The notes under the pieces were generated by a model, which was not told where the DNA came from, did not search any database, and saw nothing but the letters and a program-made list of their open reading frames with translations. Both the position numbers and the translations under genes were made by a program. From positions 1 through 64,000 of the forward strand of contig CAMCYK010000005.1 of NCBI GenBank assembly GCA_945883695.1: DNA of 64,000 nucleotides, read 5' to 3'. This stretch comes from Akkermansia muciniphila. GTDB lineage: Bacteria > Verrucomicrobiota > Verrucomicrobiia > Verrucomicrobiales > Akkermansiaceae. Positions 1-42,846 of this stretch are shown in pieces (the first letter of the stretch is position 1; each line of letters opens with the position of its first letter).

Positions 1-1
1 T

Positions 2-1837
2 TCCCCGCCCCCCGCCCGCAACGCCCTCGCCGGCAGCGGCACCCAGACCAGCGCCAGCGCCCGCCACGTCCGGCCGATCTGCCCGCTCGCCGACTTCACC
101 AGCCTCTGCCGGCTGACCGGCGAAACCAGCAGCCGCTTGGAAAAGATCCGCCACCTCGCCGCCTACCTCCGCGGCCTGGCCGGCGACGACGACCTCGCGC
201 TCGCCGCCAACTGGCTGACCGGCCGCGCCTTGCCGCGCGCCGCCGACCGCCGCGCCGCCCACGCCGGCTCCGCCACCCTGCGCCGCGCCCTGCTGAAACT
301 CCCCGGCGTCCGCGAGGAACGCTACCGCGAAATTTCCCATTCCCAGAACGACGCCGCCCGCACCGCCCGCCTGCTGCTCCAGGAATTGACCCTCAAGCCC
401 GAAGCGCTCGAGCTCGCCGGCCTCGCGGCGTTTTTCCAGCACCTCGCCGCCGCGAGCGGCTCGCTCACCCGCATCGACCTGCTCGCCGAACGCCTGCGCA
501 CCCTCCACCCGGCCGAAGGCGAAACGCTGGTCCGCCTGCTTACCGGGGATCTCCGGATCGGCCTCAAAGAAGGACTGGTCGAGGAAGCCGTCGCCGAGGC
601 CTTCGCCGCCGATCCCGCCGCGGTCCGCCATGTCCACATGCTCACCGGCGACCTCGGCGAGACCGCCCGCCTCGCCCGCCAGCGCGCCTTGCACGTGGCC
701 ACCCTGCGCCCGCTGGTCCCGGTCAAGCTCATGCTCGCCTCGCCGATGCCCGACGCCGACGCGCTGGTCGCGGCCGCCGGCCCCGCGCCACTCTGGCTCG
801 AGCCGAAGTACGACGGGATCCGCGCCCAGCTTCACAAGTCCGGCGGCCGCGCCGCCCTCTTCTCCCGCGACCTCCGCCCGCTCGATTCCGAGTTTCCGGA
901 GCTTCTCACCGCCGCGCTCCAGCTCCCCGGCGACTTCATCCTCGACGGCGAGATCATCGCCCACGCCGAAGGCCGCCGCCTGACCTTCCACGACCTCCAG
1001 ACCCGCCTCGGCCGCCTGTCGACCTCCCAAGGCGACCTCTTTCCCGCCACCACCACCAGCGCCACCGCCCCGGTCCGCTTCATCGCTTTCGATCTGCTCT
1101 TCCACAACGGCGACGACCTCCTCGAACTCCCGCTCGACCAGCGCCGCGCGAGAATGGAGACGCAAGACTTCAAGACGGAAGACTCAAGAAAAGACCCAGA
1201 CGCGGCTGGCATTGAATCCACCATCTCCCACCTATCCTCCGAAGCCTTGGCGAAGGAGGATCCGCCATCCACCATCCACCATCTACCATCCACCATCTCC
1301 CCCATCGCCGTGCTCCGCACGGCAGGCAGCGAAGCCGTCCAGGCCGCCTTCAAGCAGGCCCGCGCCGACGGCCATGAAGGCCTGATCGCGAAAGACCCGG
1401 CCAGCCCCTACTCTCCCGGCCGCCGCGGCAAGGCCTGGCTGAAGCTCAAGACCTCCAGCACCCTCGACTGCGTGGTCGTCGCCGCCGAGCAAGGCCACGG
1501 CAAGCGCGCCGAAGTGCTCTCCGACTACACCTTCGCCGTCCGCGACGAGGCCGGCGGCCAGCTCCGGGTCATCGGCAAGGCCTACTCCGGCCTGACCGAC
1601 GCCGAGATCGAACAGCTCACCGCCCACTTCCAGCGCCACACGCTGTCGAAGGAACGCCGCAAGCACCAGGTCGAGCCGAACCTCGTGCTTGAGATCGCCT
1701 TCGACTCGATCCAGCCGTCGAAGCGCCACGACTCCGGCCTCGCCCTGCGCTTCCCCCGCATCCACGCGATCCGCCGCGACAAGACCGCCGCGGACATCGA
1801 CACCCTGCAATACGCCAGGTCGCTGGTGGCCGGGTGA
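2..1837 (+). CDS. ATP-dependent DNA ligase, 5' end outside window
   Basis: Joins DNA nicks using ATP. The nucleotidyltransferase motifs are in order: lysine motif EPKYDGIR (adenylated Lys about residue 224 counted from the TTG at 137), DGEII, FIAFDLLF, EGLIAK and WLKLK, followed by an OB-fold region. The frame stays open to the left edge with no ATG or GTG. The residues encoded before 137 (LADFTSLCRLTGETSSRLEKI) look like the usual N-terminus of the family, so the true start is probably outside the window. TTG at 137 is the only canonical in-window start and would shorten the N-terminal domain. Between motif IIIa and motif IV there are about 46-50 extra residues encoded by repeat DNA (about 1150-1305), described separately. 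In related bacteria this ligase often sits with an exonuclease and an Lhr-type helicase, but the neighbours here are unrelated. Confidence 0.9.
   Translation, partial: SPPPARNALAGSGTQTSASARHVRPICPLADFTSLCRLTGETSSRLEKIRHLAAYLRGLAGDDDLALAANWLTGRALPRAADRRAAHAGSATLRRALLKLPGVREERYREISHSQNDAARTARLLLQELTLKPEALELAGLAAFFQHLAAASGSLTRIDLLAERLRTLHPAEGETLVRLLTGDLRIGLKEGLVEEAVAEAFAADPAAVRHVHMLTGDLGETARLARQRALHVATLRPLVPVKLMLASPMPDADALVAAAGPAPLWLEPKYDGIRAQLHKSGGRAALFSRDLRPLDSEFPELLTAALQLPGDFILDGEIIAHAEGRRLTFHDLQTRLGRLSTSQGDLFPATTTSATAPVRFIAFDLLFHNGDDLLELPLDQRRARMETQDFKTEDSRKDPDAAGIESTISHLSSEALAKEDPPSTIHHLPSTISPIAVLRTAGSEAVQAAFKQARADGHEGLIAKDPASPYSPGRRGKAWLKLKTSSTLDCVVVAAEQGHGKRAEVLSDYTFAVRDEAGGQLRVIGKAYSGLTDAEIEQLTAHFQRHTLSKERRKHQVEPNLVLEIAFDSIQPSKRHDSGLALRFPRIHAIRRDKTAADIDTLQYARSLVAG
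1150..1305. repeat. In-frame composite repeat inside the ligase gene
   Basis: This block has three parts: a 7-bp-period array (AAGACNN units, about 1155-1205), an imperfect palindrome at 1235-1260 (CCTCCGAAGCC / GGCGAAGGAGG), and a second 7-bp-period array of CCATCCA/CCATCTA units (about 1262-1300). A near copy of the palindrome lies in non-coding DNA at 17149-17171 on the other strand, and CCATCCA arrays occur between genes at 23131-23152. The block keeps the ligase frame open and adds residues such as SSEALAKEDPP and STIHHLPSTI that fit no ligase motif. Confidence 0.75.
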
Positions 1838-17051: not shown

Positions 17052-17475
17052 GGGGACTGGTAGGGACGACGCGCCCTCGCTCGTCCGCGTAGCCACGGGT
17101 GGGCGGCTGCGATCCCCCGGGATGAAGCGGGCTGCCAGGGACCGTTCCCTCCTTCGCCGAGCCTACGGAGGGCAGGCCGGTCGGCCGAGGGCGTCCAACC
17201 CATAAGCGTTAACGTAACGCTGGAAAGCGCGGGATTTTGGGTTTCGGGAAAGACGCTCTCCGGGATTTGATCGACGAAGAATGATTGTTGATATCGAATT
17301 TTTAAACTGATGGAACCGACTTCATTCAATCAAACCTCAAAAATCAACATTCATAAATCGTCAATCAGAATTTGTGGATGGGAAGCGTCAGGAAATCGCT
17401 CACTTCAGCGGTCTCGTGTCGGCTCTAGGATTTAAGGTAGCGCTTATGGGCGTCCGACCCTACCTCCAAGGGACC
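17052..17475. repeat. Intergenic repeat region, 424 bp
   Basis: No gene seen. It holds the palindrome at 17149-17171 that also occurs inside the ligase gene. It also has an inverted pair of a 10-mer (CCCATAAGCG at 17199-17208 and CGCTTATGGG at 17441-17450), and a 7-bp-period array at about 17321-17375 (AATCAAA/AATCAAC units). The stretch from about 17210 to 17400 is A+T-rich compared with its surroundings, so a promoter for the ThuA/DUF1800/DUF1501/ligase group may lie here, but no box is convincing. Confidence 0.55.
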
Positions 17476-20700: not shown

Positions 20701-20781
20701 GATCACTGATCACTGATCACTGATCACTGATCACTGATCACTGATCACTGATCACTTGGCACTTGGCACTTGGCACTTGGC
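20701..20781. repeat. Perfect heptamer tandem arrays TGATCAC and ACTTGGC
   Basis: Seven to eight perfect copies of TGATCAC are followed directly by about four copies of ACTTGGC. Both have a 7-bp period. The junction lies at the 3' end of the kinase gene, whose stop (20752-20754) is inside the array. On the minus strand the first unit reads GTGATCA, so a TGA stop appears in all three frames within 21 bp. It is the cleanest of many similar but more degenerate arrays in this window. Confidence 0.9.
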
Positions 20782-22047
20782 CCTTCCCCAGATCCCCGCC
20801 CACGCCTGCTCGACCACCTCTTCCGCCGACAAGGCCGCGTCGAGCAGCACGGCGCGCGGGCCGAGCTCCTGCGCCAATTCCCGATAGGCCGCCAGCTGGC
20901 GCTCCAGTTCTTCCAGCGGGACCTCCTGCTTGCGGCCATGGATCGTCTTCGCCGGAGCCACCAACACCAGCACCCGGTCCGGCCGCGGCAGCAAGCGGAA
21001 CATCAAGCGCGCCCAACCCGGGCCGGCCCCGTAACGGTAGCGGCGCGGATCGACCCGCAGGTCGTCGAAGTAGCGGTCGGAAATCAGCATCGCCCGCTTG
21101 GCCCGGAAATGTCCCACCGCCCCCACCCGCGCCCCCCACCACCGCGCGCAGAGCCACGCGGTCTTGCCGATCGAAAGCACGACCCCGCGCGGCTCGCGGC
21201 CATGGGGGTCGGTCACCGGAGCCCCTGGCACCTCGCCGTCTCCGCGCGGCCGCGGTCCCCAGTGCGCTTCCTTCACTCCGATCCGTGTCGGCTTGAGCCG
21301 CTCGCGCAGGCCGGCGATCACCGACGACTTGCCGCTGCCATCCGGCCCGAGCAGGGCGATCCAGGGAAAGGGCGGCCGCACATGATGACCGAACTCGCAA
21401 GCCCAGTGACGCGCCACTCGGTCGATCGTCGCCAGCGGCGCGCGCATCAGGCAGCGCCAGGCGAACACCCGCCGCAGCGACCGGGCGACCCGGTCCATCC
21501 CGTCGAAATCCCCGTCCTCCACCCGCCGGACCAAGGCTTTGGCCCGGGCAGGACCGAAGGCGCGGTTGAGGCAAGCCGCGAACTCTTGGCCGTCCTCCTT
21601 CACCGCCCGCTTCAGCAAGCCTTCGTAGCGCGTCCCGTGCTTGCCGCCCCACAGCAGGCCGGTCATCCACGCGATGAACGCGTCGTGCGCCAGCCGCGGC
21701 CGCGGCAAGCCGTCGTCGCCGGGCTGGACGCAGGTCCAGAAGCGGCCCGGATCGAGATACTCGCAACCGTTCCATTCGAAGCAGGGGAGGAAATCGACCT
21801 GGCCCCACTCGAAGTAGCGTTGCGTCACATAGCGTCGTGCCACCGTCAGCAGCGGCCGGCCGAAGCGCGCTTCCAACGCCTGCCCCGCCAACGCGGGTTC
21901 GCGCACCGCCAGGTCCCAATCGCTGCTGTCCCGGTGCTCCAGCCCCTCGACCCGGTGCCGGAGGAAGGCGATCTCCCCGCGCAGCGCCTCCGCCAGCCCC
22001 CGCTCCGCGCCGGCCGCCCGCAGGCCTGTGTTGGAGAGTGGGAGCAT
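20752..22047 (-). CDS. Two-domain protein: nucleotidyltransferase-like N-terminus and thymidylate-kinase-like P-loop C-terminus
   Basis: A 431-residue protein. The C-terminal half has a Walker A, LLGPDGSGKSSVIAGLRERL (about 233-252), and later a kinase-like DRYFDDLRVDPRRYRYG, VLVLVAP and an Arg-rich lid, resembling thymidylate kinases. The N-terminal half carries RDSSDWDLAVREP, which resembles the DxD metal site of nucleotidyltransferase-fold proteins. Such fusions occur in surface-glycan clusters; the substrate is unknown. The last residues (AKCQVPSAK) are encoded by the ACTTGGC tandem array, so array length changes would alter the C-terminus. Confidence 0.72.
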   Translation of the reverse strand: MLPLSNTGLRAAGAERGLAEALRGEIAFLRHRVEGLEHRDSSDWDLAVREPALAGQALEARFGRPLLTVARRYVTQRYFEWGQVDFLPCFEWNGCEYLDPGRFWTCVQPGDDGLPRPRLAHDAFIAWMTGLLWGGKHGTRYEGLLKRAVKEDGQEFAACLNRAFGPARAKALVRRVEDGDFDGMDRVARSLRRVFAWRCLMRAPLATIDRVARHWACEFGHHVRPPFPWIALLGPDGSGKSSVIAGLRERLKPTRIGVKEAHWGPRPRGDGEVPGAPVTDPHGREPRGVVLSIGKTAWLCARWWGARVGAVGHFRAKRAMLISDRYFDDLRVDPRRYRYGAGPGWARLMFRLLPRPDRVLVLVAPAKTIHGRKQEVPLEELERQLAAYRELAQELGPRAVLLDAALSAEEVVEQAWAGIWGRAKCQVPSAK

Positions 22048-22866: not shown

Positions 22867-23149
22867 GGGAGCGGACGGAAATCAGAAATCAGAAATCGGA
22901 GATCGGAAATCGAAGGTCGAAGCTCGAAGGTCGCGGACGGCGATCGCCCCGGGAGGGGCATCAGAAATTAGCCGGTGGCGTGAGCCACCGGACGCGCGTC
23001 GGTCATGCGGATCGCGTCCCGGAGGGCCGCCGGACGGGGCACCGGGAAATGCCGCGTTTCCCCGCCACCTCGTGCGATCCCTGGCAATCAACAATCAACA
23101 ATCAACAATCAACAATCAACAATCAACAATCCCATCCACCATCCACCAT
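22867..23149. repeat. Intergenic repeat cluster: heptamer arrays and hairpin family C
   Basis: It holds a 7-bp-period array of GAAATCA/GAAATCG/GAAGGTC type (about 22876-22935). A hairpin follows with 8-bp arms CCGGTGGC (22972-22979) and GCCACCGG (22984-22991) around GTGA, preceded by CCCCGGGAGGGGC. A third piece is an array of AATCAAC (about 23085-23131) running into CCATCCA units (23131-23152). No coding potential. A related hairpin copy lies at about 25077-25125. Confidence 0.75.
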
Positions 23150-24343
23150 CTACGCTCTCCGCCCCACCGCCTCACCCGCAATCCGCTCAAACTCATCCAA
23201 CCAATCCTCACGCCGGGTGTTCGCCAACAACCAGCGGCGGCCTTCGCCGCCCCGTCGACTCGCCTCGGCGGGATTCCTCAACACCTCCACCATCTGTTCC
23301 GCCAATTGCGCGGCATCGCCCGGCCGGTGCAGCCAGCCGGTCTGATCCGGCACCACCGTCTCGGCCAAACCACCGCCGTCGGCCGCCAGCACCGGCTTGC
23401 CGAAATCATAGGCCTCATACGCCACCAGTCCGAGCGCTTCCCACCACACCGAGGGCACCACCATCGCGCTGCAGCGCGCCAGCAGCTCGTCCTTGTCCCG
23501 GCCTCCGACAAAACCCAGGTAATCGCAGCGGGGCAAGGCCGCGGCTTCGCGCCGCACGAATTCCTCCATCGGCCCCAGCCCGCCGATGCACAGCCGCGCG
23601 TCCGGCACCCGGTCCGCCGCCAAGCGCCAGGCCTCCAACAGGGTCACCACGCCCTTGGCCTCGGTCAGCCGCCCGAGAAATACCAAAGTCGGCGGACCCT
23701 CCCCCATGGACTCGTCCGGCAGTTCGGGACGGGGATCCCACGAATGCTTCAGCACGTGCACTTTGGCGGGGTCCAGGCCGGCCTGCACGAAGGTATCCCG
23801 CATGAACCGGGAGATCGCCAGCCAGCCATCGACCCGCTTGAAAAGCCCGCTCGCGTGCATCGAGTAAAGCACCGCCGCATAGACCGCCGTCTTCACCCGA
23901 GAGTCCTGCCACGATCCCGCCAGCACTTCGGGCAGAAAGTTCTTCTTCAGCCCCTGCGGCAGCAAGCGGTCGCCGCCCCACAGGTAGCCGTTGACCGAGA
24001 AGGGCCGGAAATTGTGCACCAGTTGGAACACCGGGATGTCCATTTTGAGCGCCTCGCGCAGAACCCCCGCCGAACCGACCGGAAAGATGTTGTGGAACAG
24101 CAACAGGTCCGGCCGTGCGGCCGCGACATGGCGGCGGAAGCGGGCAATCGAGTCGGGATTGTGAAAGATCTGCGCCACTTGCATCAGCGCGTTGCCGAGG
24201 GATTTCTCGGCCGCCCACATCGCGCTGTCAAAATAGCAGTGGAACACCTGGTGGCGGGAACTGAGCACGTTGGAGATCCGCTCGACCGACATTTCCTCGC
24301 CGCCCCGCTCCAGATAGCGGTTGAATACCTGCAGGATCCTCAT
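23150..24343 (-). CDS. Glycosyltransferase family 4
   Basis: A 397-residue GT-B enzyme. ATG at 24343 starts MRILQVFNRYLERGGEE and overlaps the stop of the upstream PAS protein (ATGA), which fixes the start. The donor half shows LVFLGRLTEAKGVVTLLEAW, LGFVGGRDKDELL and the E-x7-E motif WEALGLVAYEAYDFGKPVLA. Likely adds a residue to the repeat unit on the cytosolic face. The end of the coding region (GEAVGRRA) runs up to a CCATCCA heptamer array. Confidence 0.92.
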   Translation of the reverse strand: MRILQVFNRYLERGGEEMSVERISNVLSSRHQVFHCYFDSAMWAAEKSLGNALMQVAQIFHNPDSIARFRRHVAAARPDLLLFHNIFPVGSAGVLREALKMDIPVFQLVHNFRPFSVNGYLWGGDRLLPQGLKKNFLPEVLAGSWQDSRVKTAVYAAVLYSMHASGLFKRVDGWLAISRFMRDTFVQAGLDPAKVHVLKHSWDPRPELPDESMGEGPPTLVFLGRLTEAKGVVTLLEAWRLAADRVPDARLCIGGLGPMEEFVRREAAALPRCDYLGFVGGRDKDELLARCSAMVVPSVWWEALGLVAYEAYDFGKPVLAADGGGLAETVVPDQTGWLHRPGDAAQLAEQMVEVLRNPAEASRRGGEGRRWLLANTRREDWLDEFERIAGEAVGRRA

Positions 24344-42605: not shown

Positions 42606-42647
42606 TGAATTGTTCAACCCAAAGGAAGAGGACAGGCGGCCGTCAGA

Positions 42648-42846
42648 CCTTGGACTGCGTGCAGCCTGCTGCCGCTTTGTTGCCACGGCCTGCCGTGGAG
42701 TCCACCGGACCCGCCATCAGGCTGGCGGACGGGCACCTTGGACTGCGTGCAGCCTGCTGCCGCTTTGTTGCCACGGCCTGCCGTGGAGTCCACCCGACCC
42801 GTCAGCAGGCTGACGGACGGAAAGCGGCAGCGGGCTGCCGCAGTCC
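42648..42846. repeat. Hairpin repeat family A, two tandem copies plus inverted end
   Basis: Two direct copies about 88 bp apart (42648-42733 and 42736-42820), each starting CCTTGGACTGCGTGCAGCC. Each contains the hairpin CCACGGC-CT-GCCGTGG and a second one of CCGCCA/TGGCGG or CCGTCAGC/GCTGACGG type. The cluster ends with an inverted piece GCGGCAGC-GG-GCTGCCGC and GCAGTCC. The related cluster at 55877-56094 has the same hairpins with paired base changes. Confidence 0.85.

Follow-up and report, generated by a model that had tools for sequence, protein, structure and literature searches.

Repetitive extragenic palindromic (REP) sequences, which are palindromes tagged by GTAG or CGTC, are also found inside genes. 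Many of the intragenic copies are located in replication and repair genes, one of them in a DNA ligase of Opitutus terrae; recB of two Xanthomonas species carries different REPs at about one site, and flexible linkers and loops have been proposed as neutral sites for them (Di Nocera et al. 2013, PMC3733652). The Rickettsia palindromic elements (RPEs) are described as in-frame repeats of about 150 bp in unrelated protein genes, predicted to be compatible with the protein structure (Ogata et al. 2000, reviewed in PMC10969869). Heptameric repeats form dispersed 7-bp arrays that are chiefly intergenic, slippage has been proposed for the 7-nt bias, and over-representation of heptameric repeats in bacteria is known, one of the reports citing a survey of it (PMC4692102; PMC4679880). 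Here we describe a stretch of 64,000 nucleotides (the window), which is contig C5 of a verrucomicrobial genome (G000; 6.32 Mb in 391 contigs), and in it an ATP-dependent DNA ligase gene (2..1837, plus strand) with a loop extension of 37 residues that is built from short repeats found throughout the genome.

The ligase insert is similar to the intragenic REPs because a short palindrome lies at a loop site inside a verrucomicrobial DNA ligase, but it differs from them in that heptads make up most of the inserted bases, length changes in steps of three heptads and no transposase association was found. It shares with the RPEs the in-frame insertion in coding genes that stay functional, function being judged from the ratio of nonsynonymous to synonymous substitution rates (dN/dS) of the ligase only. 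Compared by their description, the RPEs are defined families with one conserved peptide each, whereas variable heptad families and a 24-bp palindrome are found here, in a distant phylum. Unlike the reported heptameric repeats, several of the present arrays are fixed within the reading frames of core enzymes, and that of the ligase has a REP-like palindrome beside it. A limited literature search gave no description of core enzymes that carry heptad arrays with such a palindrome in frame, or of the three-heptad step.

Structure of the repeat-built ligase loop

The insert is located in frame between ligase motifs IIIa and IV, and the frame 2..1837 stays open across 1150-1305, as the sequence-only reading of this DNA had proposed for a composite repeat inside the catalytic domain. 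The segment from the RR of the helix following motif IIIa to VQAAF (1148..1336, plus strand) comprises 63 codons. The Pfam domains DNA_ligase_A_N, A_M and A_C were all found in the open reading frame, the catalytic motif residues are conserved, and the nucleotidyltransferase core (motifs I-V) and the OB domain are intact according to Pfam, the motif residues and Foldseek. The earlier statement that the motifs on both sides are unharmed thus agrees with the domains, the motif residues and the low dN/dS of the flanks given below.

Two arrays with a 7-bp period were expected around a palindrome and both were found, though the first is degenerate. Array 1 (1158..1189, plus strand) consists of AAGACTN/AGACGCA heptads with 7/8-bp spacing, and its Tandem Repeats Finder (TRF) score was 34 at period 7 and 48 at period 15; a related AAGACGC array is present on contig C62 in the form of inverted arrays. 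Short ATCCACC-type heptads (ATCCACCATCTCCCACC; about 1216..1232, plus strand), read from the sequence and orthologous in the relative G129, lie 5′ of the 24-bp palindrome CCTCCGAAGCCTTGGCGAAGGAGG (1236..1259), which is REP-like and known in GAAG and GTAG variants. Array 2 (1260..1297, plus strand; ATCCACC ×5.4) follows with a strong TRF score of 62, and the palindrome has heptads on both sides.

The catalytic fragment was modeled with AlphaFold2 (AF2) using an alignment of 54 sequences, which gave a mean predicted local distance difference test score (pLDDT) of 86.4; an earlier model from 14 close sequences was dropped at a pLDDT of only 62.7. Foldseek with the accepted model matched archaeal ligases and human LIG1. 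Codons 393-426 (1178..1279, plus strand) were the sole segment of at least 3 residues with pLDDT below 50, and they sit between a confident helix and a strand. The model thus supports a flexible, probably disordered loop extension. A repeat-encoded surface loop had been suggested; the low-confidence, disordered loop is borne out by the model, whereas a surface position would fit the low confidence and the placement between helix and strand.

Loop length and constraint among relatives

Each of the 16 family orthologues that belong to other genera has an RR-to-VQAAF loop of 25 residues (16/16), in comparison with 63 in the window. Within the genus the loop was 26-30 residues in ten members, 36 in G125 and 56 in G129. 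Distant orthologues with an equally long but non-repetitive loop would have spoken against an insertion; none was seen among these 16, and the alignment with relatives has the appearance of a clean in-frame gain. Solved archaeal ligases have approximately 13-17 residues where the present protein has approximately 52, the extra segment lying between two well-aligned blocks. The homologous insert is present in G129, an independent metagenome-assembled genome (MAG), and the loop of G125 holds the array-1 part only. Because the insert is absent from all outgroups, gain is the simpler reading of the sequences and would give the direction of the change. In codon shuffles, heptad periodicity of the loop was significant in G000, G129, G064, G039 and G079, and in no orthologue from another genus.

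Between G000 and G129, dN/dS was 0.20 before the insert, 0.39 inside and 0.12 after it. The flanks are thus, by this sequence measure, under purifying selection, which indicates maintenance of the gene with weaker constraint on the insert. We consider it likely that genome-dispersed repeats were gained in frame in this lineage, at a permissive loop site of a functional ligase, and that whole-heptad changes in length followed. Lineage-restricted presence, frame retention, flank constraint, dispersal and recurrence in other genes are direct observations, whereas we infer that the change was a gain, that the arrays expanded by slippage, that the loop is neutral, and the route by which the repeats arrived.

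The window begins inside the ligase gene, whose 5′ part, coding for a metallo-hydrolase (RMMBL) domain, is located on contig C164, so that the fusion protein of approximately 1000 aa has a metallo-beta-lactamase-fold domain at the N-terminus and the DNA ligase behind it. A contig that terminates within the gene is what would be seen if the gene were decaying or the insert were an assembly artefact. This was rejected, and we give it next to no weight, as the insert is also present in the independent MAG G129, dN/dS is low and the ligase domains are intact. The ends of the two contigs (window 1-164 and C164 3-164) overlap by approximately 160 bp with 98% protein identity, and it looks as though strain variation split the assembly within the ligase gene. 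The named relatives of the ligase are MAGs of Verrucomicrobiaceae/Akkermansiaceae and Haloferula sp. BvORR071; the host is an uncultured Verrucomicrobiota bacterium related to Haloferula.

At the same site, the ligase of G101 has a loop of 71 residues with a sequence unrelated to the window insert. This independent insert, and the recurrence of inserts in enzymes of DNA repair, replication and translation, would be expected if repeat-encoded loops were selected for a function such as a regulatory linker, translation pausing or partner binding. The higher dN/dS of the insert than of its flanks, its variable lengths and sequences and its lack in most orthologues make selection for function quite improbable. 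The G101 loop (L003) is built from GAGCCCCAACGGGGCGAC and GAGCCCTGAAAGGGCGAC hairpins, and on contig C109 of the window genome a GAACCCCAACGGGGTGACA sequence, which is related to that of the G101 loop, adjoins the palindrome.

Heptad steps and the reading frame

Array 2 of G000 exceeds that of G129 by exactly three heptads (21 bp = 7 aa). Steps of 7 aa were also observed at site 1 of penicillin-binding protein 1c (PBP1c; −7 and +7) and in PriA of G000 versus G129, and a second heptad array of the ligase fusion (DASSSPIYHPPSTIPAGHAVI, in the exonuclease domain) is 7 aa longer than that of G125. On C109, two segments with a common palindrome and 3′ flank have approximately 1 and approximately 14 heptads. 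As 7 cannot be divided by 3, all three frames of a strand translate an array into one and the same cyclic heptapeptide, HHPPSTI for CCATCCA and NNQQSTI for CAATCAA. These peptides are mostly polar and free of stops, and therefore an array is tolerable wherever a loop can grow. This heptad logic, one peptide in all frames and steps of three units, is a simple rule that can be tested.

In the mechanism that we propose, the dispersed heptanucleotide arrays of the genus would lengthen and shorten by whole heptads, presumably through slippage during replication or through exchange among copies, and a second kind of repeat, the REP-like hairpin palindrome, would recur beside heptad arrays and in REP clusters. 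Frame breaks would be purged by selection, so that surviving changes would be multiples of 3 bp and often three heptads (7 aa), while the loop itself would most likely be neutral.

Several points weigh against gain and whole-heptad change in a permissive loop. In many arrays ATC is retained every 7 bp while the other positions vary, and simple slippage does not predict this. Some indels that are not multiples of 7 aa were found at site 2 of leucyl-tRNA synthetase (LeuRS; 6 aa) and in PriA of G125 (2 aa). The partial insert of G125 could reflect loss just as well as a gain in steps. Finally, translation and harmlessness of the loop are predictions from sequence and model.

Heptad arrays in the genome and in other proteins

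The window gave 12 TRF rows of period 7, whereas 20 dinucleotide shuffles averaged 0.4 and never exceeded 2, and CCATCCACCATCCACC with up to 1 mismatch had 71 matches in the genome versus 0 in controls. Tandem 7-bp units are dispersed through the genome, as in the heptameric simple sequence repeats (SSRs) or short tandemly repeated repetitive sequences (STRRs), and arrays of the CCATC type hardly occur outside this genus. The CCATCCA array that had been pointed out elsewhere in the window is present at 23132-23150, where it forms part of a compound array of CAATCAA ×6.7 followed by CCATCCA ×2.7 (23085..23150) with a left flank scored as non-coding. Most arrays were located outside genes in two samples, one of 337 kb that was picked around CCATCC arrays, so that its in-frame fraction is not the genome-wide rate, and one of 400 kb that was not selected for arrays and contained one clear in-frame heptad array, that of PriA. 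Several in-frame "arrays" of 14 or 21 bp in both samples were GC-rich codon-periodic repeats rather than heptads and were left uncounted.

The suggestion that such repeats can colonise genes is supported by in-frame heptads in at least six other proteins. They occur in PBP1c at two sites, in PriA directly ahead of the Walker A motif, in a U32 peptidase at four sites, in LeuRS of G000 and G129 (with other inserts at the same site in G101 and G093), and in a DNA methylase and an HNH protein. The in-frame arrays of PriA, PBP1c, the U32 peptidase and LeuRS are located at L211 12277-14562, L162 8600-11080, L271 1747-4287, L275 2332-5025 and L279. The DASSSPIYHPPSTIPAGHAVI array is a second in-frame array in the ligase fusion gene itself, in the N-terminal metallo-hydrolase domain (G000 C164; L169 480-511, minus strand), and it is absent from G056 and Haloferula BvORR071. 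Heptad sequences and encoded peptides vary from site to site. A tendency of intragenic arrays to have ATC on the coding strand is no more than suggestive, LeuRS and the U32 peptidase having been found through similarity to the ATC-strand peptide.

The heptads differ from gene to gene, and in G064, G039 and G079 different heptads occupy the same ligase loop while its length is nearly unchanged. Both would be explained if slippage at chance CCATC or CAATC seeds had created the arrays within the loop and only the palindrome was imported, a possibility that is compatible with lineage-specific gain. However, the same few heptad families recur genome-wide and CCATC is nearly confined to the genus, which points to copying among loci or to a common bias, and we regard birth in the loop as a real possibility of somewhat less than even chance. 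A little more tentatively, the heptads and REP-like repeats may drive a continuing extension of loops, in which mobile or copied heptads would enter the same loops independently and then change by 7-residue steps; if so, they would be a natural generator of disordered loops in essential enzymes.

The loops of the ligase, PriA, LeuRS, PBP1c and the U32 peptidase can be traced over approximately 18 genomes, with and without repeats, and therefore the conversion of non-coding repeats into protein can be measured in this comparative system. For annotation, such inserts call for care, as they may resemble frameshifts or assembly errors.

The palindrome and its surroundings

With up to 2 mismatches, 31 matches to the palindrome were found in the genome and 1 in the control. 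Among 39 distinct sequences, found with a pattern in which Y and R could vary independently, 34 had C-G or T-A as the inner pair and 3 more had T-G, and this covariation suggests that the hairpin is conserved. With 24 bp, an imperfect palindrome and many dispersed copies, the element is within the size range of REPs (20-40 bp). Counted regardless of its position in the hairpin, the tetranucleotide read GTAG in 19 of 25 copies, and GAAG in the ligase copy and 3 others. Copies are found in two contexts: some lie beside various repeat arrays and have a border resembling GAT/GAC...ACAGG, and others lie within GTAG-REP clusters. The neighbours include other repeat units (AGTGATC, AAGTGCC) or no repeats at all. 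The second palindrome that had been noted in the window does exist (17148-17171, 1 mismatch to the pattern), but it lies in a GTAG-REP cluster (17060..17210) without heptads, and its interpretation as another copy of the composite was ruled out.

The composite of heptads, palindrome and heptads might be a mobile unit inserted whole, similar to miniature inverted-repeat transposable elements (MITEs) or to REPs and bacterial interspersed mosaic elements (BIMEs), and moved by a Y1 transposase. A 70-bp stretch of palindrome and array matches an intergenic copy on C109 at 93%, the palindrome copies on C109, C126 and C347 are edged by heptads and show the GAT/GAC...ACAGG border, and Y1_Tnp genes are abundant (28 matches). 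Much of the 70-bp match, however, is low-complexity heptads, and the palindrome and the two GTAG-REP types searched for were absent from all 20 Y1_Tnp loci examined (0/20), some of which are cut by contig ends. Heptad arrays mostly lack the palindrome, 21 of 25 palindromes lack GAT/ATC heptads at their edges, the neighbouring repeat units differ, and G125 has array 1 alone. Insertion of the whole composite is therefore unlikely, and the earlier view that the elements move as units keeps the C109 match in its favor while the parts mostly occur separately. Independent behavior of the parts together with array slippage fits better than single-unit movement. For the REP/GTAG superfamily we note a resemblance and claim no membership, as flanking of a REP-associated tyrosine transposase (RAYT) was not found at these loci.

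Other array forms

Many of the arrays between genes have an inverted layout, (GATGGNN)n-spacer-(CCATCNN)n, with which they form strong hairpins. Large examples are located at L196 4135-4224, L193 3940-4085, L163 9216-9330 and L153 15079-15218, and the hairpins are predicted to be very stable, down to −79 kcal/mol as RNA. Many heptads of the genome have ATC (or GAT) in a fixed register with the remaining four positions variable. Compound arrays in which one heptad turns into another are found in the window at 20701-20785 (GATCACT, then CACTTGG) and 22876-22933 (CGGAAAT, then TCGAAGG), and a longer unit of 88 bp is present at 42647-42820 in two tandem copies that are 95% identical.
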